The position numbers were made by a program, and so were the translations under genes. Under the pieces are notes generated by a model. The model saw only the letters and a list, made by a program, of their open reading frames with translations, did not search any database and had not been told where the DNA came from. Shown here one piece after another: positions 13,791-63,469 of a stretch of DNA of 64,000 bases. The stretch is from Planctomycetota bacterium (GTDB lineage: Bacteria; Planctomycetota; UBA8108; UBA1146), in NCBI GenBank assembly GCA_014240375.1, contig JAAZXB010000002.1, forward strand, positions 1 to 64,000, in the 5' to 3' direction. The first letter of the stretch is position 1; each line of letters begins with the position of its first letter.

Positions 13791-13824
13791 TCGAGAATGG
13801 CCCGCTGCGGGAAGCGGCGAACGG

Positions 13825-46294: not shown

Positions 46295-47602
46295 TTAGGG
46301 GCAGTTTGATGCGGATTCGCAGTCCGCTCCTTCTTCAGTACCGCACTCCGGGAATGGAGCGCTGGGCATCGGGCCGCTGAGCAACCGGTAGCTGATCAAA
46401 AAGATCGCATCCGCGGTGTCGACAAAGTCGTCGGAGTTGGCGTCACAAGCCTCGGCACAAGTGCCGGCGGGTCCGCCCTGGAACATCTCGTTGAGGATCC
46501 AGATTCCGTCCGCAATATTCACGACCTGATCTCCGTTGCAGTCACTACGAACGAAGGGCAGGTCAGGCGGAGCGTAGGAGGGGCTCAGAGTCACCGAACC
46601 GTCAGTCAAAGACGGATCGACGCTTCCTCCACCCACTACCACAATGTTCACAACCGGGGGGGATCCAAGCTCATTGGACCAGGCCAATGTGGTCATCGTG
46701 TCGGTCTCGAGTCCAGCAAGTGCAGAAGCGACGGTGCTGTATTCGACGTTCAGAACCGGTGTGGCTGTCTCGAAAGTCAAGGTCGCTTGACCGGTGAAAC
46801 TGTAAACCACTCCAATGGTCCATCCGCCGTCATAGGCGTTCCCTTCCGCGAAGTCCGGGTCGATTCCAGTATCCATGTTCCAGGCGACCGAGTTGGCGGT
46901 CAACAAGGAGGAATCATGTGCCATTCCCATCGAGACTCCTTGGGTCTCGCTGGGGAAACCGGAGTTATCCGGATTCTCTTGAATGGTCGGAGTTACCGTG
47001 AAGGTCGCCTCTCCACTGAGACCATCGTACGAGATGGCTTGGTCGGCGACAGCGAAGTCGAAGGGAGGTGGTCCTGAAACCATCTCGATGGTTCCGGAAC
47101 TGGTCAAGGGCAGAATTGATTGTCCACCCACCACCACGAGGATTTCAACTGCTGGATTTCCGAGAGTGTTGCAGAAGTCAACGCTCGTGGAAGAACCGGC
47201 TTCGCCGAGTAACTCGTAGGAAGCGACATTCAACTCGTTACCTGTAGTACCTGTCGGCAGCGTTGCGCAACCGACGAAACAGACCACGACTCCAACGGTG
47301 AAGCCCTGGTCAGAGACCACGTTGACCTGATTGAAGTCTGGAGAGCCTCCTTCATTCACGGTCGAAGTGGCGGCTCCATCGATGACTTCCGTCAGGCTAA
47401 GCGCCAGACCGTCATGACAGACTCCGAAGGACCAACCCTGGATTGGGTCTCCATTGTTGTCTAGTAAGACCTGCAGATCGGCGCTGGAGCCTGGTGCTCC
47501 TGCTGCGCTGCTCAGCGACAGATCGTATTGCGCGAATGCCGGGGCTCCGAGCAGGAGCGCTAAGGCAAGGGTGAAAGCGATTTTTGTACTTTTCATTTTC
47601 AT
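46295..47602 (-). CDS. Type A cohesin-like/dockerin secreted protein 1
   Basis: 435 residues with signal peptide (KIAFTLALALLLGAPAFAQ). First module (about 25-165): WSFGVCHDGLALSLTEV, VVVCFVGCATL, VDFCNTLGNPAVEILVVVGG, with four conserved Cys. Second module (about 175-330): GVSMGMAHDSSLLTANSV, WTIGVVYSFTGQATL, LGSPPVVNIVVVGGGSV. Both have the cohesin-type opening in which a strand ends HD or YD. The end is dockerin-like, with two EF-hand-type loops DCNGDQVVNIAD and DANSDDFVDTAD, then CGTEEGADCESASNCP. The ATG at 47602 follows GGAAG. It lies 48 bases downstream of a type B gene and before a terminator. Expected to be secreted; binding partner unknown. Confidence 0.8.
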   Translation of the reverse strand: MKMKSTKIAFTLALALLLGAPAFAQYDLSLSSAAGAPGSSADLQVLLDNNGDPIQGWSFGVCHDGLALSLTEVIDGAATSTVNEGGSPDFNQVNVVSDQGFTVGVVVCFVGCATLPTGTTGNELNVASYELLGEAGSSTSVDFCNTLGNPAVEILVVVGGQSILPLTSSGTIEMVSGPPPFDFAVADQAISYDGLSGEATFTVTPTIQENPDNSGFPSETQGVSMGMAHDSSLLTANSVAWNMDTGIDPDFAEGNAYDGGWTIGVVYSFTGQATLTFETATPVLNVEYSTVASALAGLETDTMTTLAWSNELGSPPVVNIVVVGGGSVDPSLTDGSVTLSPSYAPPDLPFVRSDCNGDQVVNIADGIWILNEMFQGGPAGTCAEACDANSDDFVDTADAIFLISYRLLSGPMPSAPFPECGTEEGADCESASNCP

Positions 47603-47650
47603 ACTCACTTCCGTAAGGAAGTCCTTAATCTATGGGTTCCTGATTCGGGG

Positions 47651-49483
47651 TTAGTTACAAGAGGCCGGCAAGGCACAGTCAAGGTCGTCCTCAGTGGGAT
47701 CGGCACCCGGCGTGTAAGCGCCTGGCGCTGGTGTCGGAGGCCCGAACTTGAACAAGAAGTTGAGCAAGAAGACTGAGTCCGCGAGGTTGATCACGGAGTC
47801 GTCATTGGCGTCACAGGCGTCGAGGCAGCCGACCTCGTAGCCCTGGAACTGACTGGCGATCACGGTGGCGGCATCCGCCAGGTCGACCTTGGTATCCGTA
47901 TTGCAGTCACCACGCTGGAAGGCGGGGACTGGAATGATCTCGTAGGTCGCACCGTAACGCTCGAACGATTGGATCGACTGGTACTCGATAACAACCAGGT
48001 TGTTGATCGGGACCATGCCGTTACCGTTGATTCCGTCGCAGAAATCGATGGAGAAGGAATCACCACAGGTGGCTCCAGCGTCAACTTCAGCCTGCACACA
48101 TGCGATCATCAGCGGCTCGCTCGTTGAAGGTAGCTGCTGGTTCTCGAAGGGTGGAAGCGCGTCCATCAGGATACCGGCGACCAACTCACGGCCATCGCCG
48201 TCATTGTCGTCATTGTCGATCTGGTAGTTGACGAATTCAGCACCCAGCTCGTCAGCGATGGAACCTTCGATGGTGAAAGTACCGTCGATCAGAAGAAGGT
48301 CGTCGTAGCAGACGGCCATCTGAAGACCCTGGATGTTGTCGTTAGGATCACTGTAGAAGAAGCAAAACTCGATCGCCTGACCGGGGAAGCCGAGGCCACC
48401 ATTGGTGCCGGTCTCCGGGAAGTCACGCTGACCGATGTAGAACGCCGTATCGTTGACTGGAATGACGATCGGCAGCAACTCAACGGTTCCGTCCTCAAGA
48501 GAGGGACTGATCGACAGTCCTGCGACGACGATCACGTTATCGAGAGCGGGGCTACCCAGCTGACCGTTGACCAGCTCGATGGCGGTCGTGATTGACGGAT
48601 CCGGGCTTTCGATGACTTGATTGGACGAGTAGGTGAAACTGGCGATGTGGTTATCAGCACCGGTTGCGATGCTCTGGCCCTCGAACGGGCTCTCGAAATC
48701 GAGTACCACTCCCAGAGTTCCTCCGTTGGAGTACAGCTCCGGAACCACCAGCTCAGCACCTGCAGAGAGAGTCTCTGCACCCAGCATGATCCCCTGAAGG
48801 GAAATGAGAGCCGAGTCATGAGCCACCGCCAGGACGTATCCCTGGACAGCTCCGCTGGAGTTTGAAAGAAGGACACGCGCAGCACCACTGGAATCGGAAT
48901 CGAAATCAATCGACTCGAGTCGCATGCTGTCGGGTGGAGGCGGAAGAAGCGTCATGGTGCCGTTGTTGAGCCCGAGGCCATTGGCGGCACCAATGCTTTG
49001 CCCATTCTGCACCAGCAGGTTGGACAGGGGCGGGTTGTTCAGAACACCGTCAGAGAACTCAAGGGCACTCTGGGTGTCCGTGGTCACGATGGTCTGAGGA
49101 GTCAGTGTGAAGGCTGCAATCTCCTGGCCCAACCCGGCAGGAATTTCCTGGCCGTCGAAAGGCGCACTGGCATCCACAACGACCCCTAGAGTGAATCCAC
49201 CGGGAAGGGTTTCCGGCACGACTAACTCTGCAGTAGCTGCAGTCGTCGCAGATCCTGCGACGACATCGGTTACCGACAACAGTCCGTTGTCGAAGGTTAT
49301 GGCAAGCACAAAGCCCTCAACCGATGCATCAGCGTCCATCAGAACGCTTAATGTCTCGGATGCGAGTCCTGCCGATTGACCATCGGTGATGGTCAGTGAA
49401 TTCTGAGCGAAGGCATGGGTGCCGATCGCGGCAAAAAGTACCGCGAGAAGTGCGCTGCGAAGGCGCATAAGACTCCGGTTCAT
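47651..49483 (-). CDS. Type B cohesin-like/dockerin secreted protein 1
   Basis: 610 residues with signal peptide (RLRSALLAVLFAAIGTHAFA). Three modules: B1 (VEGFVLAITFDNGLLSVTDV, PPLSNLLVQNGQSI), B2 (VQGYVLAVAHDSALISLQGI, ALDNVIVVAGLSI) and B3 with Cys (FCFFYSDPNDNIQGLQMAVC, LPSTSEPLMIACVQAEVDAG, INNLVVIEYQSI). A dockerin-like end follows (DCNTDTKVDLAD, DANDDSVINLAD) with LLNFLFKFG and an acidic, Cys-ending tail. The ATG at 49483 is preceded by GAGGAGAG. First gene of a two-gene unit with the type A gene at 46295. Its type-A neighbour shares module-end motifs of the form NP.L.N..V..G.S, so A and B modules look related. Confidence 0.8.
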   Translation of the reverse strand: MNRSLMRLRSALLAVLFAAIGTHAFAQNSLTITDGQSAGLASETLSVLMDADASVEGFVLAITFDNGLLSVTDVVAGSATTAATAELVVPETLPGGFTLGVVVDASAPFDGQEIPAGLGQEIAAFTLTPQTIVTTDTQSALEFSDGVLNNPPLSNLLVQNGQSIGAANGLGLNNGTMTLLPPPPDSMRLESIDFDSDSSGAARVLLSNSSGAVQGYVLAVAHDSALISLQGIMLGAETLSAGAELVVPELYSNGGTLGVVLDFESPFEGQSIATGADNHIASFTYSSNQVIESPDPSITTAIELVNGQLGSPALDNVIVVAGLSISPSLEDGTVELLPIVIPVNDTAFYIGQRDFPETGTNGGLGFPGQAIEFCFFYSDPNDNIQGLQMAVCYDDLLLIDGTFTIEGSIADELGAEFVNYQIDNDDNDGDGRELVAGILMDALPPFENQQLPSTSEPLMIACVQAEVDAGATCGDSFSIDFCDGINGNGMVPINNLVVIEYQSIQSFERYGATYEIIPVPAFQRGDCNTDTKVDLADAATVIASQFQGYEVGCLDACDANDDSVINLADSVFLLNFLFKFGPPTPAPGAYTPGADPTEDDLDCALPASCN

Positions 49484-50076
49484 CACTTTCTCTCCTCGTC
49501 TCCAGGGGACACTTCGGAAATTCCAATCGGTCAAGGAGGGGCCTTTCTACCCGGACCCTGACTTCTCGGAATGACTCCGATAAAATGGGGATTAACAAAA
49601 AATGTAAGTAAACAAGTCAGGAAGACCCAGGAGCCGGTCCAGGGGTGAACCGAATCCAGTATCTACCCGACAACAATTGCCGGTTATGTGGCGCTAGGAA
49701 GAGGTAGAACTGACCGGGCGTGAACCCGGATCTGCTGAGGAGTCGTGTCGGGACTCCTGTCTTCGAGTCTCGACCGTATCACTCATTGTCAAACATGTCT
49801 ATATACAAAAGCGTTAACAAAGAGACGCTGCAGACTAGAGCAGCACTCGTGACGAAGACGGCTCACCAGAATCACCGTGATTTCCGGCAACATGTGCCGT
49901 ATTCCGGCAAGCATTACTTCCTTCACCACGGACCCACACCACGGACCCACACCACGGACCCACACCACGGACCCACACCACGGCGGCCGCCATCGATTTA
50001 GCGAGGTCTCGATTGGAAGTGCCGGCTGTCGCTGCTGGGGGTCAGGAGAAGAGGAGGAGGACAGGAAGATAGAGCT
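49484..50076. other. Leader region of the 47.7 kb unit, with repeats and hairpins
   Basis: About 590 bases without a credible gene. It contains two adjacent stem-loops (CCGGG..CCCGG near 49713-49729 and AGGAGTC..GACTCCT at 49738-49758) and the 13-bp repeats described separately. The promoter of the 49483 gene should lie here; hexamers were not identified. Confidence 0.5.
49924..49983. repeat. 13-bp tandem repeats (about 4.6 copies)
   Basis: CACCACGGACCCA repeated head to tail from 49924, four full copies and a partial one. Non-coding, between two genes of the cohesin/dockerin array and about 90 bases from a terminator. Confidence 0.93.
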
Positions 50077-50114
50077 AAAAAGCGGGCCCAAAGCCTACTG
50101 GCTTCGGGCCCGCT
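50077..50114 (-). terminator. Rho-independent terminator of the type A gene at 50167
   Basis: On the minus strand AAGCGGGCCCGAAGCC, loop, GGCTTTGGGCCCGCTT, then a T-run. A single mismatch lies within the long stem. Located 53-90 bases after the stop. Confidence 0.9.
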
Positions 50115-50166
50115 TCAGGATCGACAAGAGGGCGGGAAACAACTCTTCCCACGATCGATGCCGGAT

Positions 50167-51462
50167 CTATGGACAGTAGTTGGTGGCATCACAATCGGAG
50201 CCGACCTCAACCCCACAATCGGGGAATGGGGCGGTCGGAGCCGGACCGTCGAGCAAGCGGTAGTAAATCACGTAGATCGCATCCGCTGTATCGTAGGAAC
50301 TGTCGCCGTTGGCGTCACAAGCCTCGGCGCAGGTTCCGCTGGGGCCTCCCAGGTGGAGTTCCTGAAGCATCCAGATCCCGTCCGAAATGTCGACGCCGCT
50401 ATTTCCGTTACAGTTCCCTCGAAGGAACGGCTGATCGAACACCGGCATGAAGGTGATGGTTCCATCGACCATTTCGGGAGTCAGAGAGGATCCATTGACC
50501 ACCACAATATTGGCCACCGGAGGGGATCCAAGGTCTTCCGACCAGGACAGCGCTGTATCCGTCGAGCCACTTCCAGACAGTGCGCCGGCCACCGACGAGT
50601 AATCCGCCACCGCCACATCGAGGGGCTCCGTGAAGGCCAGAGTCACCCCACCGGTGAAGCTGAAGACCACACCCATCGTCCAGCCTCCTGCAGAAACTCC
50701 ACCCTCGGCAAAGTCTGCATCGAAGGGGAGGCTCACATCCGCACCCGTGCACTCCATCACCGAGGAATCGTTGGCCATTCCCATCGAGAAGCCCTGAGTC
50801 TCATTGGGAAAACCTGCTCCGCTGGCACTATTATCCGTTTCTGAAATCTGGACCGAGACGCTGAACGAGGCCGATCCCGAGTTCCCATCGTAATTGATGG
50901 TCTCTGTCGCGGCGGTAAAGATGAACTCCGGATCTGGAATCGGGGGAGTTGCGAGAATCTCGACTGAACCCGAGATTTGCTCCGGGGTCACTGACGCCCC
51001 GTTGACCACGATCACCGTTTCCACCGGAGGTGCACCCAGGGTGTCGCAGAAATCGGTGGCAGAGACCCCTTCCGCATCCGCGGTGTAGGTCGCGACATTG
51101 ATCTCATATCCGGTCCCAATCTCGAGTACTGCACACCCGGTGAAACAGACCACAAGACCCACGGTGAATCCATCGGCGAGCACATTGACCTGATTGAAAT
51201 CGGGTGGACTGCCGTTCTTGACAATGAGTGTGGTCGCACCATCCGCTACCGCGTCGAGAGTCATCAAGGTCGAGTCGTGACAGGCTCCGAAGGACCAACC
51301 AGCAACGACATCCAGATTGACATCGAGCATCGTGGATTGATCAAAAGATTCTCCCAGGGTGGCGGTTGCCGGTCCGGAGACGTACAGGATAAAATCCTGT
51401 GCCCCCAGCGGACTGGTGGTCATCATCAAGAATACGGTGAACAGGCAGATCAACTTGTACAT
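50167..51462 (-). CDS. Type A cohesin-like/dockerin secreted protein 2
   Basis: 431 residues with signal peptide (LICLFTVFLMMTTSPLGAQ). First module: WSFGACHDSTLMTLDAVADG, VVCFTGCAVLEIGTGYEINV, DFCDTLGAPPVETVIVV, with the four Cys of type A. Second module: GFSMGMANDSSVMECTGADV, WTMGVVFSFTGGVTL, LGSPPVANIVVVNGSSL. Dockerin-like end: NCNGNSGVDISD and DANGDSSYDTAD, then CGVEVGSDCDATNYCP; the first loop starts with Asn and has an Asn at its fifth position, so calcium binding there may be weaker. AAGGAAA precedes the ATG. It has its own terminator and is separated from the upstream gene by another, so it appears to be a single-gene unit. Confidence 0.8.
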   Translation of the reverse strand: MYKLICLFTVFLMMTTSPLGAQDFILYVSGPATATLGESFDQSTMLDVNLDVVAGWSFGACHDSTLMTLDAVADGATTLIVKNGSPPDFNQVNVLADGFTVGLVVCFTGCAVLEIGTGYEINVATYTADAEGVSATDFCDTLGAPPVETVIVVNGASVTPEQISGSVEILATPPIPDPEFIFTAATETINYDGNSGSASFSVSVQISETDNSASGAGFPNETQGFSMGMANDSSVMECTGADVSLPFDADFAEGGVSAGGWTMGVVFSFTGGVTLAFTEPLDVAVADYSSVAGALSGSGSTDTALSWSEDLGSPPVANIVVVNGSSLTPEMVDGTITFMPVFDQPFLRGNCNGNSGVDISDGIWMLQELHLGGPSGTCAEACDANGDSSYDTADAIYVIYYRLLDGPAPTAPFPDCGVEVGSDCDATNYCP

Positions 51463-51826
51463 GGGCGGTTTCCTTCATTTCCAATGGGGTAGCCATGGTC
51501 CTCCTGGCCACCCTCTTGAGACTCCATCTCTTCATCCAGATCGGCTCAAATGGGCCGATAGGATGACCTAACGCCACCTCTGATCCCGAGTGCATCCTTC
51601 GATTGCAGCTCCTTCGTGTGGTACCAAAACCGGGCGAACCACTCGAGATCAGGGGATGGACCCTCCCGTGGATCCAAGGTGTCATCGTAAGGGGCAATCC
51701 CCCCCGGCGCAGCCACGAAATTGCACCTATCTTGGACCCTTTTTCTCATGACAACTAGTTTGTAAAGAATCGGTCCTCGGGAGAACTCGATCCCATTTCC
51801 TTCCCTCGAACCAGCGGATCCGCCAT
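51463..51826. other. Leader region of the type A gene at 50167
   Basis: 364 bases without a credible gene, between the ATG of one type A gene and the terminator of the next. It must hold the promoter for the 51462 start because a terminator lies upstream; no repeats or hexamers were recognised. Confidence 0.45.
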
Positions 51827-51827
51827 G

Positions 51828-51865
51828 AAAAAAGCCAGCTCCCCGACAAACTCGAGGAGCTGGCT
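51828..51865 (-). terminator. Rho-independent terminator of the type A gene at 51918
   Basis: On the minus strand AGCCAGCTCC, a 13-base loop, GGAGCTGGCT, then TTTTTT. Located 53-90 bases after the stop. Confidence 0.92.
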
Positions 51866-51917
51866 GCTATTTTCACGACTCACACGATGCTGGCTGAAGA
51901 GTCTCCACTCTTCTCAG

Positions 51918-53192
51918 CTAGCAGCCGGAAGCGGAGCAATCTTCAGGAGTTTGCCCATCGACCTGACCACAATCGGGGAAAGGAGCAGAGGGCATCGGGC
52001 CACTGATGAAGCGATACTGGACGATGTAGGTCGGGTCTGCGATGTCGTACTTGCTGTCTCCATTGGCATCGCGGGCAATCGCGCAACTGCTGGCAGGGCC
52101 AGAGATGAACAACTCACTGATAATCCAGATGGCGTCGGCGACATTCACATGGGCGTCACCGTTGGCATCGCCACGGATCCAATCGATCGTCACCACTGGA
52201 TTGAGGGCGATGCTACCGTCGCTGCGAAGCGCATCGAGAGATCCACCACCGACCACCACGACATTGGCCACTGCAGGAGAACCGAGGCCGTCATCCCAGG
52301 TCAGTGAAGCGGTCGCGCCGTCTTCATTCCCCGCCATGCTGCCGCCAGTCTCGTAGTCCACCGAGATCACCGTCGTCGCCGAAGGGAACGCCAGCACCTC
52401 GCCACCCGTGAAGCTGTAAACCACTCCTACAGTCCACCCTTCGGGGTAGATGTTGCTCTCGCCAAAATCAGCGTCGAACGGCAACGACAGGTTCACTGCG
52501 GTGGCCACCACCTCGGAACTGTTGCCCAGCCCCATCGAGAAGCCCTGGGTATCGTTGGGGAAAGGTGCGCCCAATCCACTGTTGTCGGTCTCAGAGATGC
52601 TGATATCGACTGAAGCGGAGGCGTTTCCATCCGCCGGATTGTAGCCGGCAGAGGCGTTTCCAGCGGCGTAGGTGTACTCCGGATCGGGAACACCGATGCA
52701 CTCGACATCACCAGAGTTCTGCACCGGAACGATTGAGGCGCCATCGACCACCACGACTGTATCCACCGTGGGTGCCCCCAGGGTGTCACAGAAGGAGACG
52801 GAAGTGCTACCCTCAGCGGTGCAGGTATAACTAGCGATGTTCAACTCGTATCCGGTTCCGTTTGTCAGGGTGGCGCACCCGACGAAGCAGATCACCACAC
52901 CAACAGTGAATCCCTCGTCAAAGACCGAACTCTGGTTGAAGTCGGGGGTACCGCCTTGATTCACGGTGGCTATGGTCGATCCGTCCGCCACACCGGTACA
53001 GGTGAGAAAGGCGGTGTCATTACAGGCTCCGTAGGACCAACCCTGCATCTCTCCACCGTTGTTGTCGAGAGTGATCGAGAGGTCTCCGCTACCGTTATTG
53101 GGAATATTGCCACTGGAGATGTTGAGGACGTAATCCTGCGCAGAAACGGTGGTCGCGACCAACAGGAATGCTGTTACTAAAAGATTTCTCAT
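51918..53192 (-). CDS. Type A cohesin-like/dockerin secreted protein 3
   Basis: 424 residues with signal peptide (LLVTAFLLVATTVSAQ). First module: NISSGNIPNNGSGDLSITLD, GWSYGACNDTAFLTCTGVAD, VVICFVGCATLTNGTGYELN, FCDTLGAPTVDTVVVVDG. Second module: GFSMGLGNSSEVVATAVNLS, EGWTVGVVYSFTGGEVLAF, DGLGSPAVANVVVVGG. Dockerin-like end: DANGDAHVNVAD and DANGDSKYDIAD, then CGQVDGQTPEDCSASGC. Its middle (about residues 20-310) is nearly the same as the adjacent gene at 53485, at protein and DNA level, with a constant offset of about 1573 bases. GAGAG precedes the ATG. Last member of a B-A-A unit. Confidence 0.82.
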   Translation of the reverse strand: MRNLLVTAFLLVATTVSAQDYVLNISSGNIPNNGSGDLSITLDNNGGEMQGWSYGACNDTAFLTCTGVADGSTIATVNQGGTPDFNQSSVFDEGFTVGVVICFVGCATLTNGTGYELNIASYTCTAEGSTSVSFCDTLGAPTVDTVVVVDGASIVPVQNSGDVECIGVPDPEYTYAAGNASAGYNPADGNASASVDISISETDNSGLGAPFPNDTQGFSMGLGNSSEVVATAVNLSLPFDADFGESNIYPEGWTVGVVYSFTGGEVLAFPSATTVISVDYETGGSMAGNEDGATASLTWDDGLGSPAVANVVVVGGGSLDALRSDGSIALNPVVTIDWIRGDANGDAHVNVADAIWIISELFISGPASSCAIARDANGDSKYDIADPTYIVQYRFISGPMPSAPFPDCGQVDGQTPEDCSASGC

Positions 53193-53484
53193 GACTCTCT
53201 TTCAACGAGTTGGCGAAGCACAGCCATCAGATACACCTCAGGAGTGTCGCGCAAATGTGATTGATATACTCATTCTCACCCATAGTGAATGGGCGAAGCC
53301 TTCGTTGCAAGCATTGCGACAAAAGCCTCGCCCAAATCTCGATTTCGCAGACAGGATTGTCATCAATGACCGCCATGGACTGCCATTTATAACTGACTCC
53401 CCAGCACTGGGCCGATCCAGGTTCCCGTGAGTGCGACCCCACTCTGACCGCGGAGTCCCGTCTCCGACCATCTAACCAGACCAT
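53193..53484. other. Gap between two near-identical type A genes
   Basis: 292 bases with no credible gene, repeat or terminator recognised. The two flanking genes are near-duplicates, but this spacer is not visibly duplicated elsewhere in the window. Confidence 0.4.
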
Positions 53485-54765
53485 CTAACCAGAGCAGGAC
53501 GATCCTTCACAATCTTCCGGTGTTTGCCCATCGACTTGACCACAACCAGGGAAAGGTGCGACCGGCATCGGTCCACCGATGAAACGGTACTGGATGACAT
53601 AGGACGGATCCCCGAGATCATACGTCCCATCGTCATTGGCATCACCGGAGATGCTGCAACTACTCGATGCTCCTCCGGTGAACAATTCCGAAATCATCCA
53701 GATCACGTCGCCAATATTGACAACACTATCGCTATTGGCGTCTCCGCGGATCCAGTCGCTGGTTACCACTGGGTTGAGAGAGATGCTCCCGTTTGACTGG
53801 GCAGCGGTCAGCGACGCACCACCGACCACCACGACATTGGCCACTGCTGGAGAACCGAGGCCGTCATCCCAGGTCAGTGAAGCGGTCGCGCCGACTTCAT
53901 TCCCCGCCATGCTGCCGCCAGTCTCGTAGTCCACCGTGATCACCGTCGTCGCTGAAGGGAACGCCAGCACCACGCCACCCGTGAAGCTGTAAACCACTCC
54001 TGCAGTCCACCCTTCGGGGTAGATGCTGGTCTCGCCAAAATCAGCGTCGAACGGCAACGACAGGTTCACTGCGGTGGCCACCACCTCGGAACTGTTGCCC
54101 AGCCCCATCGAGAAGCCCTGGGTATCGTTGGGGAAAGGTGCGCCCAATCCGCTGTTGTCGGTCTCGGCGATGGTGATATCGACTGAAGCGGAGGCGTTAC
54201 CATCCGCCGGGTTATAGCCGGCAGAGGCGTTTCCAGCACCGTAGGCGTACTCCGGATCGGGGACACCGATGCACTCGACATCACCGGAGTTCTGCACCGG
54301 AACGATCGAGGCGCCATCGACCACTACCACGGTGGCCACTGCGGGAGAACCCAGGGTGTCGCAGAAGGAGACCGAAGTACTCCCCTCCGCTGTGCAGCCA
54401 TATGTGGCGACATTCAACTCGTAACCCGTGCCTGTAGTAAGGGTTGCACACCCGGTGAAGCAGATCACCACACCCGCCGTGAAGCCCTCGTCGAAAACGG
54501 ATACCTGGTTGAAATCGGCGGCCGAGCCATTCTTGACGGTGGCTGTAGTCGATCCGTCCGCCACACCGGTACAGGTGAGAAAGGCGGTGTCATTACAGGC
54601 TCCGTAAGACCAACCCTGCAACTCTCCACCGTTGTTGTCGAGAGTGATCGAGAGTTCTCCGCTACCGTTATTGGGAATATTGCCACTGGAGATGTTGAGG
54701 ACGTAATCCTGCGCAATAACGCCGGTTGTCATCCACATGAATGCAATCACAAGTAAAAGCCGCAT
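53485..54765 (-). CDS. Type A cohesin-like/dockerin secreted protein 4
   Basis: 426 residues with signal peptide (LLLVIAFMWMTTGVIAQ). Module 1: GWSYGACNDTAFLTCTGVAD, VVICFTGCATLTTGTGYELN, FCDTLGSPAVATVVVVDG. Module 2: GFSMGLGNSSEVVATAVNLS, EGWTAGVVYSFTGGVVLAF, DGLGSPAVANVVVVGG. Dockerin-like end: DANSDSVVNIGD and DANDDGTYDLGD, then CGQVDGQTPEDCEGSSCSG. The long central part matches the gene at 51918 almost residue for residue, whereas signal peptide and dockerin differ more, so the pair arose by recent duplication or is kept alike by gene conversion. AAGGTGG precedes the ATG. The upstream type B gene is 133 bases away. Confidence 0.82.
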   Translation of the reverse strand: MRLLLVIAFMWMTTGVIAQDYVLNISSGNIPNNGSGELSITLDNNGGELQGWSYGACNDTAFLTCTGVADGSTTATVKNGSAADFNQVSVFDEGFTAGVVICFTGCATLTTGTGYELNVATYGCTAEGSTSVSFCDTLGSPAVATVVVVDGASIVPVQNSGDVECIGVPDPEYAYGAGNASAGYNPADGNASASVDITIAETDNSGLGAPFPNDTQGFSMGLGNSSEVVATAVNLSLPFDADFGETSIYPEGWTAGVVYSFTGGVVLAFPSATTVITVDYETGGSMAGNEVGATASLTWDDGLGSPAVANVVVVGGASLTAAQSNGSISLNPVVTSDWIRGDANSDSVVNIGDVIWMISELFTGGASSSCSISGDANDDGTYDLGDPSYVIQYRFIGGPMPVAPFPGCGQVDGQTPEDCEGSSCSG

Positions 54766-54898: not shown

Positions 54899-56305
54899 CT
54901 ATCCACAATTGGTGTCGTCGCTGTCGCAAATAGGCAGAGCATCACCGGTCGGATCCGCTCCGTCACTGTAAGGACCTGGAGCCGCTGGGCTGATCCCGAA
55001 CTTGAAGAGCCAGTTGAGCAGGAAGACTGAATCAGCCATGTTCAACAGACCATCATCATTGGTATCACATGCATCGGGGCATAAGATCTCATAGTTACCG
55101 AACTGATTCGCCAGAATCGAGGCCGCATCCGCCAGATCCGCCAGATCATCACTATTACAATCGCCGCGCTGGAAGATCTCTTCCGGCACCACCAGGACCG
55201 AGGTGTCATTCCGCTCGTAGATCTGGATCGACTGAAAATCGATGACCACGTTGTTATAGAGGGTGACCGAGCCAGTACCGTTGATCCCGTTACACCAGTT
55301 GATTTCCTGGGCAACGTCGCATTCTGCGGTGTCATCGACAGTCACCGACAAACAACCGATCAGCAGCCGACCCGCATTGAGGTCAGCAGTCTGCGGCATC
55401 GTTTGACCTTCAAATGGAGGCAGCGCATCGAGCAGGAATGCCACGACTAGCTCACAAGCATCTCCGTCTGAAGGATCATCGTCGATCTGGACGGCGAGAT
55501 ACTCGACACCGATCTCCTCGACGATCGATCCGTTCCAATCCCAATCGGATCCCACGGTCAGATCGCAGTCGTAGCAGGCCGTCATCGTCATTCCCTGGAT
55601 GTTGTCATCGGCGTCCGCATAGTAGAAACAGAGCGATCCGGTTTGACCGTGGAATGCCGCATTTCCCTCGGTGTTGTCGAATTCCGTCTCCATCCAGAGC
55701 ACCGTATCCTCCGATGGAATCGCCACCGGATCACAGGTGAAGGTTCCATCATGGAGAGTCGGCCAGACTGACAATCCACCGGAAACGGAAACGTTGGAAA
55801 GAGCCGGAAACCCATAGAAGCCATCCATGAAGGTCAGTGCCGTGGTCTCCGACGGAGGAACTGGGTCCCCTTCAAAATACAGCACAGCATTATTACAATT
55901 GTAATTGTAATTCGCCGCATGAATCTCTGCGCTCGCAGGAATAGCCTGACCATCATAGGGCGCATTGAAATCGAGCACGACTCCGATGGTCCCGCCATCT
56001 GCGTAGACAGAAGGAACCACAAACTCTGCACCCGACAGTTCGGTGTCCGTTCCAGTGATATCCACTCCACTGAGGGTAATCGCTGCCGGATCATGCGACA
56101 TCGAGATCACGAATCCCTGGACATCCGCTGAACTATCGATCAGCACCCTGACTGCACTTCCACCTGTCGAGGGCGCGGAGACGCTCTCGGCCGTGAAGGA
56201 CGCATCGGTGCCTCCCGCCAAGGAGACCGAACTGATCAGCACCATTGCGAAACAAACTGCACCAATACAGGACACACTCCTCTGTTCAATAACTCGCATC
56301 TTCAT
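54899..56305 (-). CDS. Type B cohesin-like/dockerin secreted protein 2 (short, two modules)
   Basis: 468 residues with signal peptide (CIGAVCFAMVLISSVSLAG). Unlike other type B members it lacks module B1: it begins with B2 (RVLIDSSADVQGFVISMSHD, ALSNVSVSGGLSV) and continues with B3 (DTVLWMETEFD, LCFYYADADDNIQGMTMTAC, CELVVAFLLDALPPFEGQTM, VTLYNNVVIDFQSIQIYERN). Dockerin-like end: DCNSDDLADLAD and DTNDDGLLNMAD, then LPICDSDDTNCG. An ATG at 56305 or 56299 fits; GGGAAGAGG lies just upstream. It is the first gene of a B-A-A unit. An Asn/Tyr repeat (NYNYNCN) in B2 comes from an ATTGTA-type DNA repeat near 55893-55910. Confidence 0.8.
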   Translation of the reverse strand: MKMRVIEQRSVSCIGAVCFAMVLISSVSLAGGTDASFTAESVSAPSTGGSAVRVLIDSSADVQGFVISMSHDPAAITLSGVDITGTDTELSGAEFVVPSVYADGGTIGVVLDFNAPYDGQAIPASAEIHAANYNYNCNNAVLYFEGDPVPPSETTALTFMDGFYGFPALSNVSVSGGLSVWPTLHDGTFTCDPVAIPSEDTVLWMETEFDNTEGNAAFHGQTGSLCFYYADADDNIQGMTMTACYDCDLTVGSDWDWNGSIVEEIGVEYLAVQIDDDPSDGDACELVVAFLLDALPPFEGQTMPQTADLNAGRLLIGCLSVTVDDTAECDVAQEINWCNGINGTGSVTLYNNVVIDFQSIQIYERNDTSVLVVPEEIFQRGDCNSDDLADLADAASILANQFGNYEILCPDACDTNDDGLLNMADSVFLLNWLFKFGISPAAPGPYSDGADPTGDALPICDSDDTNCG

Positions 56306-56417
56306 ACACCTCTTCCCAATTAACGTTCTCATATTTTCCGAACAATTCACTCACGGGGTTCCAGCTCAAGATCGGTACTATCAAATCCTGATACTGGCCA
56401 CCTCAAAACACACCCCA

Positions 56418-57761
56418 TCAGGGACAACTGTTAAAACTCACGCAATCTGCAGGTGTCTGCCCAGCTCTGATACCACAGCTTCCAAATGGTGCTGCGGGTG
56501 CAGGGCCACTGAGAAAAACATAGGTTGCGGTGTACACGGCATCTGCTGCATCGTTCAATCCATCCGCATTTGAATCATCCGCGCTGGCGCAATCGGTGAC
56601 AGCCCCACCGCCGAACATCTCGGATAGCATCCAGATGATGTCTGCAATGTTGATCACACCATCATCATTTGAATCACCACGCTGGAATGGGATGGTCACT
56701 GTGCCGACGAATTCGATCGACCCATCGGTGAAATTGGGTGCATAACTTCCACCCCCAAAGACCACCACGTTCGACACCGGCGGACTGCCGGTGGAATTGT
56801 TCCACACCAACGCAGTCGTCGTGGCGCCCTCGATCCCGGCGAGGGCCGTCGAATTTCCGTCATATTCAACAGAAACCACCTCGGTGGCGACGTCGAAGAA
56901 GGCGGTCACGGAACCTGCGAATGAATACACCACGCCCAGGGTCCATGCATCCGGGTAGAGGTTCGACTCTGCAAAATCAGGATCGAAGCCAAGACTGGTG
57001 GTGACGGCTGTCGGAGTGATCAGCGCTCCGTCGCTGCCGCACCCCATCGAAAATCCCTGCGTCTCATTGGGGAAATTTGCGCCCTGGGAACTGTTATCCT
57101 GCTCCTGGATGGAGAAGCCAACCGTCACCGAAAGGCCACCGATTCCAGCACCAGCCGGATAGTTATTGCCCGAAGAACTGCCACCCAGGTAGTTCCACTC
57201 CGGCTCGGGGACGTCGATCACGGTGATCGTCCCTGAGTTCTCCCCAGCAGGGGCGATCGATCCGCCGTTGACCACCACGACATCCGCAACCGGCGGTGAT
57301 CCAAGGACCCCACCGCAGTAGTCCACCGAATAGTCACCAGGTGCAACACCGCCAGCGACGGTGTAATCCGCAGTGGCCATCAGAAATCCAGTGGTCCCAC
57401 TCGCAACCACACAGCAACCGATGAAATCGATCACCACGCCCTGCGTCCAGCCTCCAGGATAGATGGATGTCTCGTTAAAACTCGCCGGATCGCCATTACT
57501 GACGGTCGAGGTGCTATTGGCAGCACCACCGCCATCTCCGATGTTCGACACGGTCGCCACCGTCTCGTCGTGGCAAATTCCCCAGGACCATCCGCTGATA
57601 TCGCCGCCACCGTTGTCGAGGGTGGCAGACAGATTCACGGTCCCCCCGGCCGCAGTCGCATCGCTACTCATGTTGTAGGTCGCACCGCCACCCGCAAGCG
57701 CCGTGTCTACCGAAAAGCAGCCGAGACCCAGTAGCACACTTATAAATACACCTATCCTCAT
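56418..57761 (-). CDS. Type A cohesin-like/dockerin secreted protein 5 (divergent)
   Basis: 447 residues with signal peptide (IGVFISVLLGLGCFSVDTAL). Module 1: GWSWGICHDETVATVSNIGD, VIDFIGCCVVASGTTGFLMA, VDYCGGVLGSPPVADVVVVN; module 2: GFSMGCGSDGALITPTAVTT, AWTLGVVYSFAGSVTAFFDV, STGSPPVSNVVVFGGGSY. Dockerin-like end: DSNDDGVINIAD and DSNADGLNDAAD, then CGIRAGQTPADCVSFNSCP. It is the most divergent type A member: Cys positions in module 1 are partly rearranged (CC in place of CFTGC). It lies 177 bases after the type B gene at 57939. No terminator was recognised behind it. The ATG at 57761 is preferred; the frame is open to 57869. Confidence 0.78.
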   Translation of the reverse strand: MRIGVFISVLLGLGCFSVDTALAGGGATYNMSSDATAAGGTVNLSATLDNGGGDISGWSWGICHDETVATVSNIGDGGGAANSTSTVSNGDPASFNETSIYPGGWTQGVVIDFIGCCVVASGTTGFLMATADYTVAGGVAPGDYSVDYCGGVLGSPPVADVVVVNGGSIAPAGENSGTITVIDVPEPEWNYLGGSSSGNNYPAGAGIGGLSVTVGFSIQEQDNSSQGANFPNETQGFSMGCGSDGALITPTAVTTSLGFDPDFAESNLYPDAWTLGVVYSFAGSVTAFFDVATEVVSVEYDGNSTALAGIEGATTTALVWNNSTGSPPVSNVVVFGGGSYAPNFTDGSIEFVGTVTIPFQRGDSNDDGVINIADIIWMLSEMFGGGAVTDCASADDSNADGLNDAADAVYTATYVFLSGPAPAAPFGSCGIRAGQTPADCVSFNSCP

Positions 57762-57938
57762 AATCTCTTCGCTTTCGATGCTAGAGGCGACTCTTCCTCG
57801 CCTTGGCCCACTTAAATTTACAGTTCCCAACCTGTTTTTATCCTGAGCGGAATTTCTTCCTCCCCACAACTTGTTGCAGGGTTAGTGCCCCCAGAATTCA
57901 CGACTTCGGTGAATCCTGGGAGACCCAACTCAAGTCCA

Positions 57939-59798
57939 TTATCCGCAATTCGTATCGCCGCCGTCACAATCGGGCAGCGAATCAACGGTTGGATCCTCAC
58001 CCTCATCGAATGGTCCTGGAACTGCCGGGACGTCTCCAAAATTGAAGAGCCAGTTCAGCAGAAACACGGGATCTGCCATGTTCAACAGGCCATCGTCGTT
58101 GCTGTCGCAGGCATCGGAACAGTTGACATCATAGTTTCCGAACTGATTGGCCAGCATCGCTGCCGCATCCGCGAGGTCTGTCTTGTCGTCGTCGTTGCAA
58201 TCGCCACGCTTGAATGCCTTAGCCGATTTCACCACGATGACGGTGTCGTCTCGCTCATACTCCTGAATCGACTGGAAGTTGATGACAACGTTGTTGTAGA
58301 GGTTGACGCTTCCGGTTCCGTTGATGTCGTTGCACCAGTTGAACTCGAGAATATCCTCACAAGCAGCGGTTTCGGCGATGGTGACAGGGAGACAACCGAT
58401 CAGCAAACGGTCAAGAACCCCGGTCTGCGGAAGAGTCTGTCCATCGAAGGGCGGCAAGGCATCCAGCAGGATGGCCACTACCAGTTCACACCCATCTCCA
58501 TCGGTATCCGAGTTGTCAGTCTGAACCGCAAGGTATTCGACTCCTACTGCTTCAACGATGGAACCGCCCCAACTCCAGAGTGGATCCACAGTTGCGTCGC
58601 AGCTGAAACAAGCGGTCATCGTCATACCCTGGATGTTGTCGGTCGGGTCAGCGTAGTAGAAGCAAAGGGCACCCGTTTCTCCGGCATACCCCATCGAATC
58701 GCGAAAATCGGTTTCCATCCAGAGCACTGTATCCTCTGAAGGAACCGCTGACGGTGGAGTCGTGAAGGCACCATTCACCACATCGGGCGCTATGGAAAGA
58801 CCACCCGAGACCACGATGTTGTTGAGCGGAGGGAGTCCAAACTCCCCATCGACGAAGGTGAGATTGGCGACCTGGTCCGCAGGAATCGGATCCCCTTCGA
58901 TGTAAATCTCAACGGTGTCAGAGTAATTGAAGTTGGCAATGTGAGTGTCTACACCCGCAGCGATCGTTTGCCCGTCGAAGGGCGCCACGAAGTCGAGGAC
59001 CACTCCCACGGTGCCCCCGTTGCTGTAGGTATTGATCGCAGTGAACTCCGCGCCAGCAGCGTCGGTTGCCGATCCGCTGAGGTCGATAGATCCGAGAGCA
59101 ATCTCGGTCTCCACGTGGGTGATCGAGAGGACAAAGCCCTGGGTCTCCCCTGAATTCTCCAGCAGCACTCTCACCGATCCATTGCCGTTCGAGTCGGCGG
59201 TGGCGTCCTCGATGGTCAGAGTTGCCGGAGGAGGAGCTCCGATACTCATCGCTGTGGTGTCCCCGTTGAGGCAGAGGCCATTGTTCGCTCCGACTGCTTG
59301 GCCATTTTGAACCATGATGTTGTCGAGTGCCGGGGAGTTAAACGCACCATCGACAAAATCGAAGCCGGTCACCGATGGGGGATCTCCCTGGTTCAGGACC
59401 AGCACCGACTGCGCGGTGAAGTTCGCGATGCTCTGGTTTGAGCCCACTGCAATCTTTTGAGAATCGAAGGGTGCCGCAGCATCCAGAACCACTCCCAGTG
59501 TGAAACCGCTTCCCAGGATCTCGGGGACCACCAGTTCAGCCCCGGAACTCTCCGTGACGGTTCCGTCAATCGACAGACCTGTAATCGCCACGAGCGAGTT
59601 GTCGTAGCTGATGGCCACGACGAAGCCTTCGACTTCCTGGTCATTGGTCATCTCGACCCCGAAGTCAGCACTGCCCAATCCTTGTACCGATTGCCCCCCG
59701 CCTGTAACGGTGAAGCAGTTATCAGCATGGGCCACACCAAGGCTGGCCACGCAAACCAGCGCGACTAAAATTGCTGTATGTAACTTAATAGTTGCCAT
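57939..59798 (-). CDS. Type B cohesin-like/dockerin secreted protein 3
   Basis: 619 residues with signal peptide (KLHTAILVALVCVASLGVAH). Three modules: B1 (VEGFVVAISYDNSLVAITGL, ALDNIMVQNGQAVGA), B2 (TQGFVLSITHVETEIALGSI, PLNNIVVSGGLSI) and B3 (DTVLWMETDFRD, LCFYYADPTDNIQGMTMTAC, CELVVAILLDALPPFDGQTL, VNLYNNVVINFQSIQEYERD). Dockerin-like end: DCNDDDKTDLAD and DSNDDGLLNMAD, then LPDCDGGDTNCG. GGAGGG lies 8 bases before the ATG; the frame to 59846 is not needed. It heads a unit with the type A gene at 56418. B2 has HVE where other modules have HD, a change at the end of the signature strand. Confidence 0.8.
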   Translation of the reverse strand: MATIKLHTAILVALVCVASLGVAHADNCFTVTGGGQSVQGLGSADFGVEMTNDQEVEGFVVAISYDNSLVAITGLSIDGTVTESSGAELVVPEILGSGFTLGVVLDAAAPFDSQKIAVGSNQSIANFTAQSVLVLNQGDPPSVTGFDFVDGAFNSPALDNIMVQNGQAVGANNGLCLNGDTTAMSIGAPPPATLTIEDATADSNGNGSVRVLLENSGETQGFVLSITHVETEIALGSIDLSGSATDAAGAEFTAINTYSNGGTVGVVLDFVAPFDGQTIAAGVDTHIANFNYSDTVEIYIEGDPIPADQVANLTFVDGEFGLPPLNNIVVSGGLSIAPDVVNGAFTTPPSAVPSEDTVLWMETDFRDSMGYAGETGALCFYYADPTDNIQGMTMTACFSCDATVDPLWSWGGSIVEAVGVEYLAVQTDNSDTDGDGCELVVAILLDALPPFDGQTLPQTGVLDRLLIGCLPVTIAETAACEDILEFNWCNDINGTGSVNLYNNVVINFQSIQEYERDDTVIVVKSAKAFKRGDCNDDDKTDLADAAAMLANQFGNYDVNCSDACDSNDDGLLNMADPVFLLNWLFNFGDVPAVPGPFDEGEDPTVDSLPDCDGGDTNCG

Positions 59799-60428
59799 CG
59801 AGTTTCCCTCCTCAAGGAATTTCATGGGGCCACTGGCGAATTCCATCTCCGCTTCAGATTCGAAGCGATCGAGAAATCAGCGAACTGACCGTTTCTTCAA
59901 AAGTCCCAAATTATTGACTTACCCAGCCCATGGATCCCGAACTCTCGGGATCGCAATGGATAAGAAGCGTTGGAAAGTTTGTGCCGATAATGATCGGCCA
60001 AACAAAACCACATCTCCTCAACACACCCACACCACACGTTTAAAAATAGGGCCTGGTTACCGATTGGCTTCAAGGCGCTGTTCTTCGCAAGGACGACACC
60101 ACTCACTCGGATTATCGGTCTTGCATGCTGGTGGCGAATCCACCCGATCTTGACCAAGACTCTTCTTCTTGACTGAACTGTCTATCCTGTACATCCCTAA
60201 CGATAGACGCATTTCTACGTCTTCACAATTGACTTATTTTCGGCTCCAGGAGCAAAACAAGCCGCGAAAAGACGCTCTCAGCCCCCCCCCCTTTCGCGAC
60301 CTTAACCTGTTTCAAAATGGTCCTTTATCCCCAATCCACCCATCGACCACACCCGCTTTCGGAGCGGCTTTGTCGGGAACGAGCTGAAAAAATCTAGTTC
60401 TAGAAACTCGGGAATCACCCAAATTTGA
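59799..60428. other. Leader region of the 57.9 kb unit
   Basis: 630 bases without a credible gene, preceding the ATG at 59798 on the minus strand. It contains a run of nine or more C near 60280 and AT-rich stretches. No tRNA or other RNA gene was recognised. The adjacent 16-bp repeat array is listed separately. Confidence 0.45.
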
Positions 60429-60616
60429 GGGATCTGACGAGGGAGGGAACTGACGGATGAGGGAACTGACGGAAGAGGGAACTGACGGAAGAGGGAACTG
60501 ACGGAAGAGGGATCTGACGGAAGAGGGATCTGACGGAAGAGGGAACTGACGGAAGAGGGATCTGACGGAAGAGGGATCTGACGGAAGAGGGATCTGACGG
60601 AAGAGGGATCTGACGA
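60429..60616. repeat. 16-bp tandem repeat array, about 11.75 copies
   Basis: The unit is GGGAACTGACGGAAGA or GGGATCTGACGGAAGA (two variants, AAC or ATC). Units are exactly 16 bases apart from 60429 to 60604, followed by a 12-base partial copy. No spacers exist, so it is not a CRISPR array. It lies 44 bases beyond the terminator of the type A gene at 60735 in the direction of its transcription. A GA-dinucleotide run follows at about 60645-60660. Confidence 0.95.
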
Positions 60617-60660
60617 CTGGAGCCCAAAGAGGGCCACTTGAGAAGAGAGAGAGAGAGAGA

Positions 60661-60700
60661 AAAAAAAAGCCACCTTGTCGTCAGCGCGACAAGGTGGCTT
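60661..60700 (-). terminator. Rho-independent terminator of the 60.7-63.5 kb unit
   Basis: On the minus strand GCCACCTTGTCG, a short loop, CGACAAGGTGGC, then eight T. Starts 35 bases after the type A stop at 60735. One of the strongest hairpins in the window. Confidence 0.95.
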
Positions 60701-60734
60701 CTAGTGGCTCAAATTTTGACTACATCAAGAATCT

Positions 60735-61526
60735 CTAGCAGCCGGATCCTTCACAATCTTCAGGAGTCTGGCCAGAGACTTGCCCGCAACCGGGGAAAGG
60801 AGCCGAAGGCATCGGTCCGTTGAGGAAGCGGTAACTGAAGATGTGCACTGCATCCGCAGCATCCACATTCCCGTCACCATTGGAATCCCGAGAGACGGCA
60901 CACGAGCTCGCAGCCCCGCCCAGGAACAACTCACCGATGATCCAGATTCCGTCGCCAATGTTGACCGTGGAATCACCGTTGGCATCTCCTCGGATCCAAT
61001 CATGTAGAACCACGACAGAGCAGTCGACCGTCCCGGAGTTCTGAATCGGCGCCACCGACGCTCCGCCAACCACCACCACTGTAGCCACAGCGGGTGATCC
61101 AAGAGAGTCGCAGAACGACACGCTAGTGGACCCTTCAGCAGTGCAGGAATAACTGGCCACATTCAGTTCGTAGCCAGTTCCAGGAGCCAAGGTGGCACAC
61201 CCGGTGAAACAGATCACCACTCCACAGGTAAATCCCTCGTCAAAAACGGAGATCTGATTGAAGTCAGGCGGGGAGCCATTCTTCACGGTGGCAGTGGTGG
61301 ACCCATCCGCCGCACCTGTGCAGGTGAGCATGGCAGTGTCGTTGCAGGCTCCATAGGACCAGCCTTGCACGTCTCCGCCATTATTGTCGAAAGTGATGGA
61401 TAAGTCACCACCCCCACCAACATTCATGGTTCCACTCGAAACGCTCATAACATAATCTTGTGCGACTGCAAAGTTTGCGGTGAAGACCACAAGGAGCAGT
61501 GCCATCGTTTGAAATAATTTTCTCAT
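60735..61526 (-). CDS. Type A cohesin-like/dockerin secreted protein 6 (single module)
   Basis: 263 residues with signal peptide (LFQTMALLLVVFTANFAVAQ). Only module 1 of type A is present: DYVMSVSSGTMN, GWSYGACNDTAMLTCTGAAD, VVICFTGCATLAPGTGYELN, FCDSLGSPAVATVVVVGG. The linker VDCSVVVLHDWIRG then leads straight into the dockerin-like end (DANGDSTVNIGD, DSNGDGNVDAAD, then CGQVSGQTPEDCEGSGC). The second module found in all other type A members is missing cleanly, without frameshift. GGAGGG precedes the ATG at 61526; the frame to 61580 is not needed. It is 47 bases downstream of the type B gene at 61574 and followed by a terminator. Confidence 0.82.
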   Translation of the reverse strand: MRKLFQTMALLLVVFTANFAVAQDYVMSVSSGTMNVGGGGDLSITFDNNGGDVQGWSYGACNDTAMLTCTGAADGSTTATVKNGSPPDFNQISVFDEGFTCGVVICFTGCATLAPGTGYELNVASYSCTAEGSTSVSFCDSLGSPAVATVVVVGGASVAPIQNSGTVDCSVVVLHDWIRGDANGDSTVNIGDGIWIIGELFLGGAASSCAVSRDSNGDGNVDAADAVHIFSYRFLNGPMPSAPFPGCGQVSGQTPEDCEGSGC

Positions 61527-61573
61527 GTCGAATCCCTCCAGGTATTCCAACATCCATCTACTAATAATATGGT

Positions 61574-63469
61574 TTAGCAATTTGTATCGTCACTATCACA
61601 AACAGGCAACGTGTCGTCGGTGGTCGCATCTGGACCATCGTTGAACGGGCCTGGTGCCGGGGGAACGTCCCCGAACTTGAACAACCAGTTGAGCAGGTGG
61701 ACAGAGTCCGCCATGTTCAGGTGGCCGTCGTCGTTGGAGTCGCAAGCGTCAGGACACAGGATCGGAAGACCGTTGAACTGGTTGGCAAGCATCGTTGCTG
61801 AGTCCGCCAGGTCGACCTTGTCGTCGCTGTTGCAATCACCACGCTGGAAGATCTCTTCGGGAACAACATGCACCAGGGTGTCGTTGCGCTCGTACAGTCG
61901 GAGCGACTCGAAGTCGATGACCACGTTGTTGTAGAGAGTCACGTCGCCATTACCGTTGATGTCGTTGCACCATTCGATCAGTTGATCTTCATTGCACTCG
62001 GCATCCATGTCGACGGTGACGCGCATCTTGCCGATCAGCAGGCGCCCATCCGCTCCGTCTCCGGAGGTGGCTACCGTCTGTGGCAAGGTCTGTCCCTCGA
62101 AGGGCGGCAGAGCGTCGAGCAGGAGCGCCACGATCAGCTCGCAGCCGTCTCCGTCGTCGGGATCGTCATCGACCTGAACGGCGGTGTACTCGACACCGAC
62201 CTGATCGAGGATCGAGCCGTTGAACTCCCAGGAGTCCTCGTGAATCGTCAAGTTACAGTCGTAACAGACGGTAAAGGTGAAACCCTGGATGTAATCGTCT
62301 TCGTCAGAGTAGTAGAAGCACAGGTCACCGGTCTGGCCGTGGTAGGCGTAGTTCCCGGCGCCCTCGTCGAAGGCAGTTTCCATCCAGAGGGTGGTGTCTT
62401 CGGCGGGATAGGCGATCGGATCGCAGGTAAATGTGCCATTTTCGTGTAACGGTGCCACGGAAAGTCCGCTAACCACGATCACATTATCGAGGGTCGGAGA
62501 TCCAAGCGTTCCGTCACTGAGTGTCAATGCACTGGAATCACTGGCAGGAGTCGGCTCACCTTCGACGTATATATTCGCATTGTTGCAAGAGTACGTGTAG
62601 GTGGCGATGTGAGTGTCATTTCCCTCGGGAATCGTCTGCCCTTCGAAGGGCGACTGAAAATCGAGGACTACTCCGTAAGTTCCGCCGTTGGGATATGTAT
62701 TCGAGATCTCGAACTCAGCACCGGCAGCACTCGCGTCTGCACCAGTGGAAATCCCCTCGAGTGTGATCATTGTTGGATCGTGAGTGATCGCAGTCACGAA
62801 CCCCTGAACACCGCCCAGGCTGTTATCGAGCAAGATTCGGGCATCACCAGTGGAACCGGTACCATCCGCGATCGCTGAACCATCCTCGATTCTCATCGTG
62901 GCTGGAGGAGGAACCAGAAGGGTCAATGTTCCGCCGTTGAGTCCCAGTCCAGCGCCGGCTCCCACAGACAATCCACCCTGAACGAGAATGTTCGACAGCG
63001 GTGGGTTGTTAAGGGTGTTGTCAGAAAATGAAAAATCAACGTCGGTCTCTACCGAGACGACCGCCATCGGGGTGACGGTCACCATGGCGAGAGCTTGGCC
63101 AGTCCCCGCAGGGATTGAATGGCCGTCAAATGGGTGGTCTGCGTCCACGACGACCCCCAACGTAAATCCACCGGAAAGGATTTCCGGAACGATCAGCTCG
63201 GCATTTGAACTCTCTGTTGCTGTTCCAGCAGTAGACAGGTCTGAAACTGCTGCCATCGAGTCGTCGTATGCGACCGCGATGACAAAGCCCTCGGTCGGTT
63301 CGGTCGAATCGAGGGATATCGACAGAGTTTCCGGAGCCAGGCCTTGAGTACTGGAACTACTGATGTTGAGCGATTGCCCTCCACCAGCGAACACAGAATT
63401 TGAGAGTACCAGAGCGACAATGATCCACGTCAATGCGCGCACCTTGAAGACTGCTTTCGTGAGATACAT
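61574..63469 (-). CDS. Type B cohesin-like/dockerin secreted protein 4
   Basis: 631 residues with signal peptide (ALTWIIVALVLSNSVFAGG). Three modules: B1 (TEGFVIAVAYDDSMAAVSDL, NPPLSNILVQGGLSVGA), B2 (VQGFVTAITHDPTMITLEGI, TLDNVIVVSGLSV) and B3 (DTTLWMETAFDE, LCFYYSDEDDYIQGFTFTVC, CELIVALLLDALPPFEGQTL, VTLYNNVVIDFESLRLYERN). Dockerin-like end: DCNSDDKVDLAD and DSNDDGHLNMAD, then LPVCDSDDTNC. The ATG at 63469 is preceded by GGGAGGAGATC. It is the outermost gene of the array in this window and heads a B-A unit. The array may continue or end beyond 64000. Confidence 0.82.
   Translation of the reverse strand: MYLTKAVFKVRALTWIIVALVLSNSVFAGGGQSLNISSSSTQGLAPETLSISLDSTEPTEGFVIAVAYDDSMAAVSDLSTAGTATESSNAELIVPEILSGGFTLGVVVDADHPFDGHSIPAGTGQALAMVTVTPMAVVSVETDVDFSFSDNTLNNPPLSNILVQGGLSVGAGAGLGLNGGTLTLLVPPPATMRIEDGSAIADGTGSTGDARILLDNSLGGVQGFVTAITHDPTMITLEGISTGADASAAGAEFEISNTYPNGGTYGVVLDFQSPFEGQTIPEGNDTHIATYTYSCNNANIYVEGEPTPASDSSALTLSDGTLGSPTLDNVIVVSGLSVAPLHENGTFTCDPIAYPAEDTTLWMETAFDEGAGNYAYHGQTGDLCFYYSDEDDYIQGFTFTVCYDCNLTIHEDSWEFNGSILDQVGVEYTAVQVDDDPDDGDGCELIVALLLDALPPFEGQTLPQTVATSGDGADGRLLIGKMRVTVDMDAECNEDQLIEWCNDINGNGDVTLYNNVVIDFESLRLYERNDTLVHVVPEEIFQRGDCNSDDKVDLADSATMLANQFNGLPILCPDACDSNDDGHLNMADSVHLLNWLFKFGDVPPAPGPFNDGPDATTDDTLPVCDSDDTNC

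Follow-up and report, generated by a model that had tools for sequence, protein, structure and literature searches.

What might ten consecutive genes be doing when every product carries cohesin-like modules together with a dockerin-like end? Cohesin-dockerin pairing is among the strongest protein interactions known, and is known mainly from degraders of plant fibre. The genes lie in the window analysed here, which covers bases 1-64000 of contig C43 in a metagenome-assembled genome (MAG) of 3.39 Mb; its relatives are nearly all marine Planctomycetota MAGs. An earlier note on this DNA had suggested that the proteins could join into a surface matrix or fibre, a scaffold system without cargo enzymes. 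We consider it an even call whether the array supplies ten exported adaptor scaffoldins to a genome-wide, non-cellulolytic cohesin-dockerin system of surface display, of which we infer the binding, the surface location and the matrix formation.

Mapping of open reading frames places ten consecutive genes for proteins of 281-635 aa on the minus strand at 46295-63469, exactly where the earlier note had them, and each product begins with a hydrophobic, signal-like segment (judged by eye), in agreement with the secretion signals read there. The proteins fall into two subfamilies. Those of A-type (g1, g3, g4, g5, g7, and g9) have two modules, except g9 with one; those of B-type (g2, g6, g8, and g10) have three, except g6 with two. 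Module delimitation gave 11 modules in each set, 22 homologous modules in total, and with the ten two-loop ends this bears out the earlier count of about 22 modules and ten dockerins. Nine of the ten proteins thus have the build of an adaptor scaffoldin, a dockerin preceded by two or three modules, and g9 has one module. The earlier note was right that both partners sit in one chain and mistaken or incomplete in treating this as a departure from cellulosomes, since it is the established architecture of adaptor scaffoldins (PMC11557425).

Within the array, all on the minus strand, g1 (46295-47608, 437 aa) carries modules at 47072-47533 and 46574-47068 and its dockerin at 46295-46549. Lying 42 bp upstream, g2 (47651-49534, 627 aa) has modules at 48938-49402, 48479-48937, and 47927-48466 and a dockerin at 47651-47914; together they make a B-A pair. 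Three A-type genes follow: g3 (50167-51462, 431 aa; modules 50938-51399 and 50437-50931, dockerin 50167-50421), g4 (51918-53192, 424 aa; modules 52689-53138 and 52191-52682, dockerin 51918-52175), and g5 (53485-54765, 426 aa; modules 54262-54711 and 53764-54255, dockerin 53485-53748), the last two being 83% identical. The B-type g6 (54899-56350, 483 aa), which lacks the first B module, has modules at 55736-56209 and 55181-55723 and a dockerin at 54899-55168, and the equally long A-type g7 (56418-57869, 483 aa) has modules at 57210-57689 and 56697-57203 and a dockerin at 56418-56681. Beyond it lie g8 (57939-59846, 635 aa; modules 59232-59720, 58761-59231, and 58221-58748, dockerin 57939-58208), the single-module g9 (60735-61580, 281 aa; module 61020-61460, dockerin 60735-60992), and g10 (61574-63469, 631 aa; modules 62909-63376, 62426-62908, and 61856-62413, dockerin 61574-61843), which overlaps the start of g9 by 7 bp.

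In transcription order the array reads B A B A B A A A B A. Between each B and the A that follows it, the gaps (-7, 69, 133, and 42 bp) are short compared with most of the others, which are of 292-888 bp apart from one A-to-B gap of 67 bp, and B-A therefore looks like a bicistronic unit. The largest gap, 888 bp at 59847-60734, separates g9 from g8. The rplQ-rpoA ribosomal cluster lies just upstream of the array start. Codon adaptation gave no sign of high expression, the array genes being like the other genes of the window, and the ribosomal genes in this comparison were themselves without bias. Elsewhere in the window, a 1352-aa open reading frame on the minus strand (19038-23096) has no Pfam match at E<=0.001.

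Are the modules cohesins? A profile built from the 22 modules recovers those 22 and no others in the array, with E-values of 6e-37 or lower. The cohesin family PF00963 matches none of the ten array proteins, nor anything else in the window. Among relatives it matches 11 of 52 A-type (best 2.7e-5) and 6 of 32 B-type proteins (best 4.1e-4), 17 of 84 at E<=1, and a single homologue encoded in this genome exceeds its cut-off (26.2 against 24.1 bits). As the array proteins fall below the curated sequence cut-off of PF00963, we term the modules cohesin-like rather than members of the family. The best PDB match of the 22-module profile is the cohesin of Ruminococcus flavefaciens scaffoldin C (E 5e-4). 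One protein of each subfamily was modeled with AlphaFold2: g1 for the A-type (pLDDT 91.9, with dockerin-like helices predicted) and g10 for the B-type (pLDDT 81.1, with the dockerin region poorly predicted). In Foldseek, the top matches of the A-type model were type II cohesin dyads and scaffoldin fragments, with single cohesins at TMt up to 0.85, and the B-type model also matched cohesins, at TMt up to 0.84. The predicted strands come in the order expected of the nine-stranded cohesin jelly roll. The single-chain models thus lend independent support to the cohesin fold anticipated by the earlier note. Matches to integrin and streptococcal AgI/II were set aside as long, low-TM alignments over strings of sandwiches.

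Alignment and predicted strands also reveal a conserved insertion, GSPPVxNVVVVGGxS, between strands 8 and 9 of the modules. In known cohesins, the sheet made of strands 8-3-6-5 is the dockerin-binding face. Here that sheet is more conserved than the other in five of five module types (p 0.0001-0.03), and its buried central strands contribute to the difference. As a sign of dockerin binding this is suggestive only, central strands being conserved in any sandwich.

All ten array proteins end in a two-loop EF-hand segment (DxNxDxxxxxxD) followed by a Cys-rich tail. The dockerin family PF00404 matches eight of them (E 7e-5 to 0.16, one above the Pfam cut-off) and gives no match for g6 or g8; among relatives it matches 40 of 52 A-type and 26 of 32 B-type proteins. 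Of the two profile searches that the earlier note had proposed, the dockerin one was therefore positive, if weakly, in eight of ten, whereas the cohesin one was positive only in some relatives. Compared with solved dockerins, the family profile matches 2y3n_B at E 5e-6. The loops of a type I dockerin are present in all ten proteins and the helices are predicted in the g1 model, in line with the paired EF-hand-like helices expected by the earlier note.

To our knowledge, a conserved Cys-rich tail is not seen in classical dockerins. Across 248 distinct tags at the loci retrieved, the Cys of loop 1 and that of the inter-loop helix occur together in 91 and apart in 8, the inter-loop and tail Cys together in 234 and apart in 3, and the two tail Cys together in 152, the first never without the second. 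Such strong co-occurrence suggests disulfides that would clasp the tail onto the dockerin, giving a predicted disulfide-stapled tag. In B-type tails (g2, g6, g8, and g10), one Cys of the tail pair seen in A-type proteins is missing, so that the last Cys may lack a partner and be available for cross-links between chains.

The tag reaches well beyond the array. The module profile finds about 79 cohesin-like modules in the genome, and the dockerin tags number at least 150, all of the 150 candidates scored out of 204 being significant. These counts resemble those of Pseudobacteroides cellulosolvens, with 78 cohesins and 212 dockerin ORFs (PMC5590126). A second array, of five genes, lies on the minus strand of contig C120 (L130, C120:64000-82000, genes 6258-14352), where four module-dockerin proteins are accompanied by a 708-aa dockerin protein; arrays orthologous to it occur at loci L085-L100. 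On contig C39, tagged genes appear as mirror-image pairs on opposite strands (about 1931-2164/15155-15388 and 7530-7814/9471-9755) with identical or near-identical scores, and the contig looks palindromic, possibly from an assembly artefact or a true inverted repeat.

What the tag is attached to changes the interpretation. A Pfam search found no enzyme domain in the ten array proteins, as the earlier note had said. Its phrase 'without cargo enzymes' nevertheless does not hold for the genome as a whole, in which enzymes and adhesins encoded at other loci bear this dockerin tag too: penicillin amidase, MauG and DHOR haem proteins, a GSDH domain, an L-type lectin, and FG-GAP proteins. Cellulosome-like numbers of modules and dockerins might suggest a true cellulosome-like machine for degrading polysaccharide. 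Yet glycoside hydrolases are found neither in the array nor in any of 18 tagged proteins scanned at other loci (more than 150 proteins being tagged in the genome), and we regard such a machine as very improbable.

Nor is the dockerin a private partner of the array modules. It is a C-terminal tag of the whole class, present in 29 of 29 genomes. The module family is likewise in 29 of 29, at 8-105 copies each, and outside the class in one of 112 sampled genomes of the phylum (E<=1e-10). Tags number 59 to more than 150 per genome across the class, whether modules are few or many, and in two genomes tag candidates reach 431 and 737 where modules number 20 and 40. As tag counts do not follow module counts, the tag may be bound by some other receptor. 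In the main rival reading, the tag would be a general C-terminal sorting or anchoring signal for an unrelated envelope receptor, and the modules, serving as structural spacers or as adhesin domains, would resemble cohesins in fold alone and would not bind the tag. Consistent with it, the tag stands at the extreme C-terminus in 243 of 248 cases, one per protein, with the unusual tail, and nearly all module proteins bear it too. Classical dockerins, however, are likewise single and usually C-terminal, and a sorting signal does not predict the conservation of the front sheet. We rate this rival a substantial possibility, though somewhat short of even.

A second pattern that a sorting signal does not predict concerns lipoproteins. 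Nearly every module protein also bears a dockerin, and the exceptions are almost all lipobox proteins. They include L117, from another genome, and the products of two adjacent genes on contig C31 (500 and 1556 aa), which have He_PIG Ig-like repeats and, at the C-terminus, a module. A lipobox is found in 13 of 14 module proteins without a dockerin and in 6 of 167 with both, the counts being regex-based and hand-corrected and the relatives not independent (about three independent families). The one exception, L116, has its 5' end cut; in L137 the lipobox lies outside the scan window; the regex match in g3 (L037) falls inside a module; and a 2009-aa protein (L034:8972-15001) does have a dockerin when searched with HMMER --max. 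Of the 13 genomes in the family, 11 have the 500-aa anchor candidate. That dockerin-less modules occur almost entirely in lipobox proteins fits a role of the latter as outer-membrane anchors, as far as sequence can indicate it.

Another candidate anchor adjoins the array. Directly downstream, on the minus strand at 40922-46057, a conserved gene encodes a 1711-aa putative lipoprotein with a lipobox Cys58 (45884-45895) and Big_5, FG-GAP, and TIG domains. It has a cohesin-like module at 43613-44095 (95% probability against the B1 profile), a possible second one at 41708-42160 (a weak match), and a C-terminal dockerin at 40997-41155 without the Cys tail. The protein is conserved in eight genomes, with the lipobox invariant in all eight orthologues. 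Surface assembly as conceived in the earlier note is plausible, if incomplete, the likely lipid anchors and this neighbor having been missed.

Comparison of gene neighborhoods, another check the earlier note had proposed, found the array, the B-A order, and the adjoining lipoprotein gene conserved across the family. A-type and B-type are two ancient subfamilies in recurring B-A pairs. In the tree, g1 and g3 belong to clades of positional orthologues that cross genera, and g4, g5, and g9 are younger; dN/dS of array orthologues is 0.16-0.21. Recurrent pairing, cross-genus positional orthologues, and this dN/dS together indicate a maintained function. They also bear on a third alternative, that the array is a tandem repertoire of variable surface adhesins serving antigenic or receptor variation, its likeness to cohesins being incidental. 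Tandem paralogues and the lineage-specific expansion around g4, g5, and g9 would suit such a repertoire, whereas the orthologue clades at g1 and g3, the low dN/dS, and the conserved order would not; we find it improbable. Two sources with other labels, 'Bacillota MAG 7' (L058, L070, L079, L097, and L098) and 'Proteobacteria DEBay_Sum29DG08_33' (L069, L084, L110, and L124), fit the planctomycete family by array and tree placement and are probably mislabelled.

We regard an outer-membrane-anchored cohesin-dockerin network as the most economical mechanism, with binding, location, and matrix formation put conditionally. The array would supply adaptors, each with one to three cohesin-like modules and then one dockerin. 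Modules would bind the C-terminal tags of other chains: binding between adaptors would give chains or branches, and the tagged enzymes and adhesins would be bound as cargo. The lipid-anchored, dockerin-less proteins with a C-terminal module, along with the 1711-aa lipoprotein, would hold the assembly at the outer membrane. If confirmed, uncultured marine planctomycetes would be using the cohesin-dockerin principle at cellulosome scale to build the cell surface and display other enzymes, and a function would be assigned to the tag on more than 100 otherwise unexplained secreted proteins per genome.

A bolder version extends to the whole class of uncultured marine Planctomycetota. It envisages a closed network of a single specificity on the outer membrane, in which adaptors, starting from lipid-anchored bases, would assemble themselves into chains or a mesh that displays more than 100 tagged proteins, including haem peroxidases and amidases. 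If true, this would be the first surface display system of cellulosome scale not meant for plant polysaccharides. In 56 tags compared by sequence only, the recognition positions have the same consensus in both tag halves and in module-bearing and other proteins, and no distinct specificities for adaptors and enzymes were seen among them. This apparently single dockerin class contrasts with the separate adaptor and enzyme dockerins of cellulosomes and counts against the display system proposed above, as does the distance of the module sequences from cellulosomal cohesins. We hold the closed network only tentatively and think it rather unlikely.

How does the system compare with known ones? Both the anatomy of adaptor scaffoldins and non-cellulosomal cohesin-dockerin systems are already known, with precedents in freshwater Planctomycetes (PMC6461901), Cloacimonadota (PMC8542988), and syntrophic sulfate reducers (PMC10553843). 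Like the adaptor scaffoldins of complex cellulosomes (PMC11557425, PMC5590126), the array proteins join several cohesin-fold modules and a dockerin in one non-catalytic chain, and the number of modules per genome, like that of dockerins, is about the same in the two systems. The array differs in its divergent module sequences and in being ten small tandem genes instead of long scaffoldins; no CBM or SLH was found, there is apparently one dockerin class, the cargo appears non-cellulolytic, and the candidate anchoring is by lipid, not to the cell wall. In ANME archaea and their sulfate-reducing partners, non-cellulosomal cohesin and dockerin proteins have an inferred role in extracellular matrix or adhesion; the accessible part of that account describes no tandem adaptor array or genome-wide tagging such as we find (PMC10553843). 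Ca. Stygibacter of the Cloacimonadota is a Gram-negative case of extracellular, dockerin-bearing enzymes on a cohesin protein, there one scaffoldin of 3,755 aa with a C-terminal sorting domain, as opposed to the many small adaptors here (PMC8542988). Closest to home, a 'planctosome' was proposed in freshwater Planctomycetes (Nemodlikiaceae), which by its description also has cohesin and dockerin domains without cellulose degradation, in a hypothetical scheme of anchor, adaptor, and cargo (PMC6461901). It comprises a few proteins, with a lamin-tail anchor, peptidases as cargo, and cohesins called in the conventional way (PMC6461901), whereas in the marine genome the divergent modules number about 79, there is an array of adaptors, and the candidate anchors are lipobox proteins.
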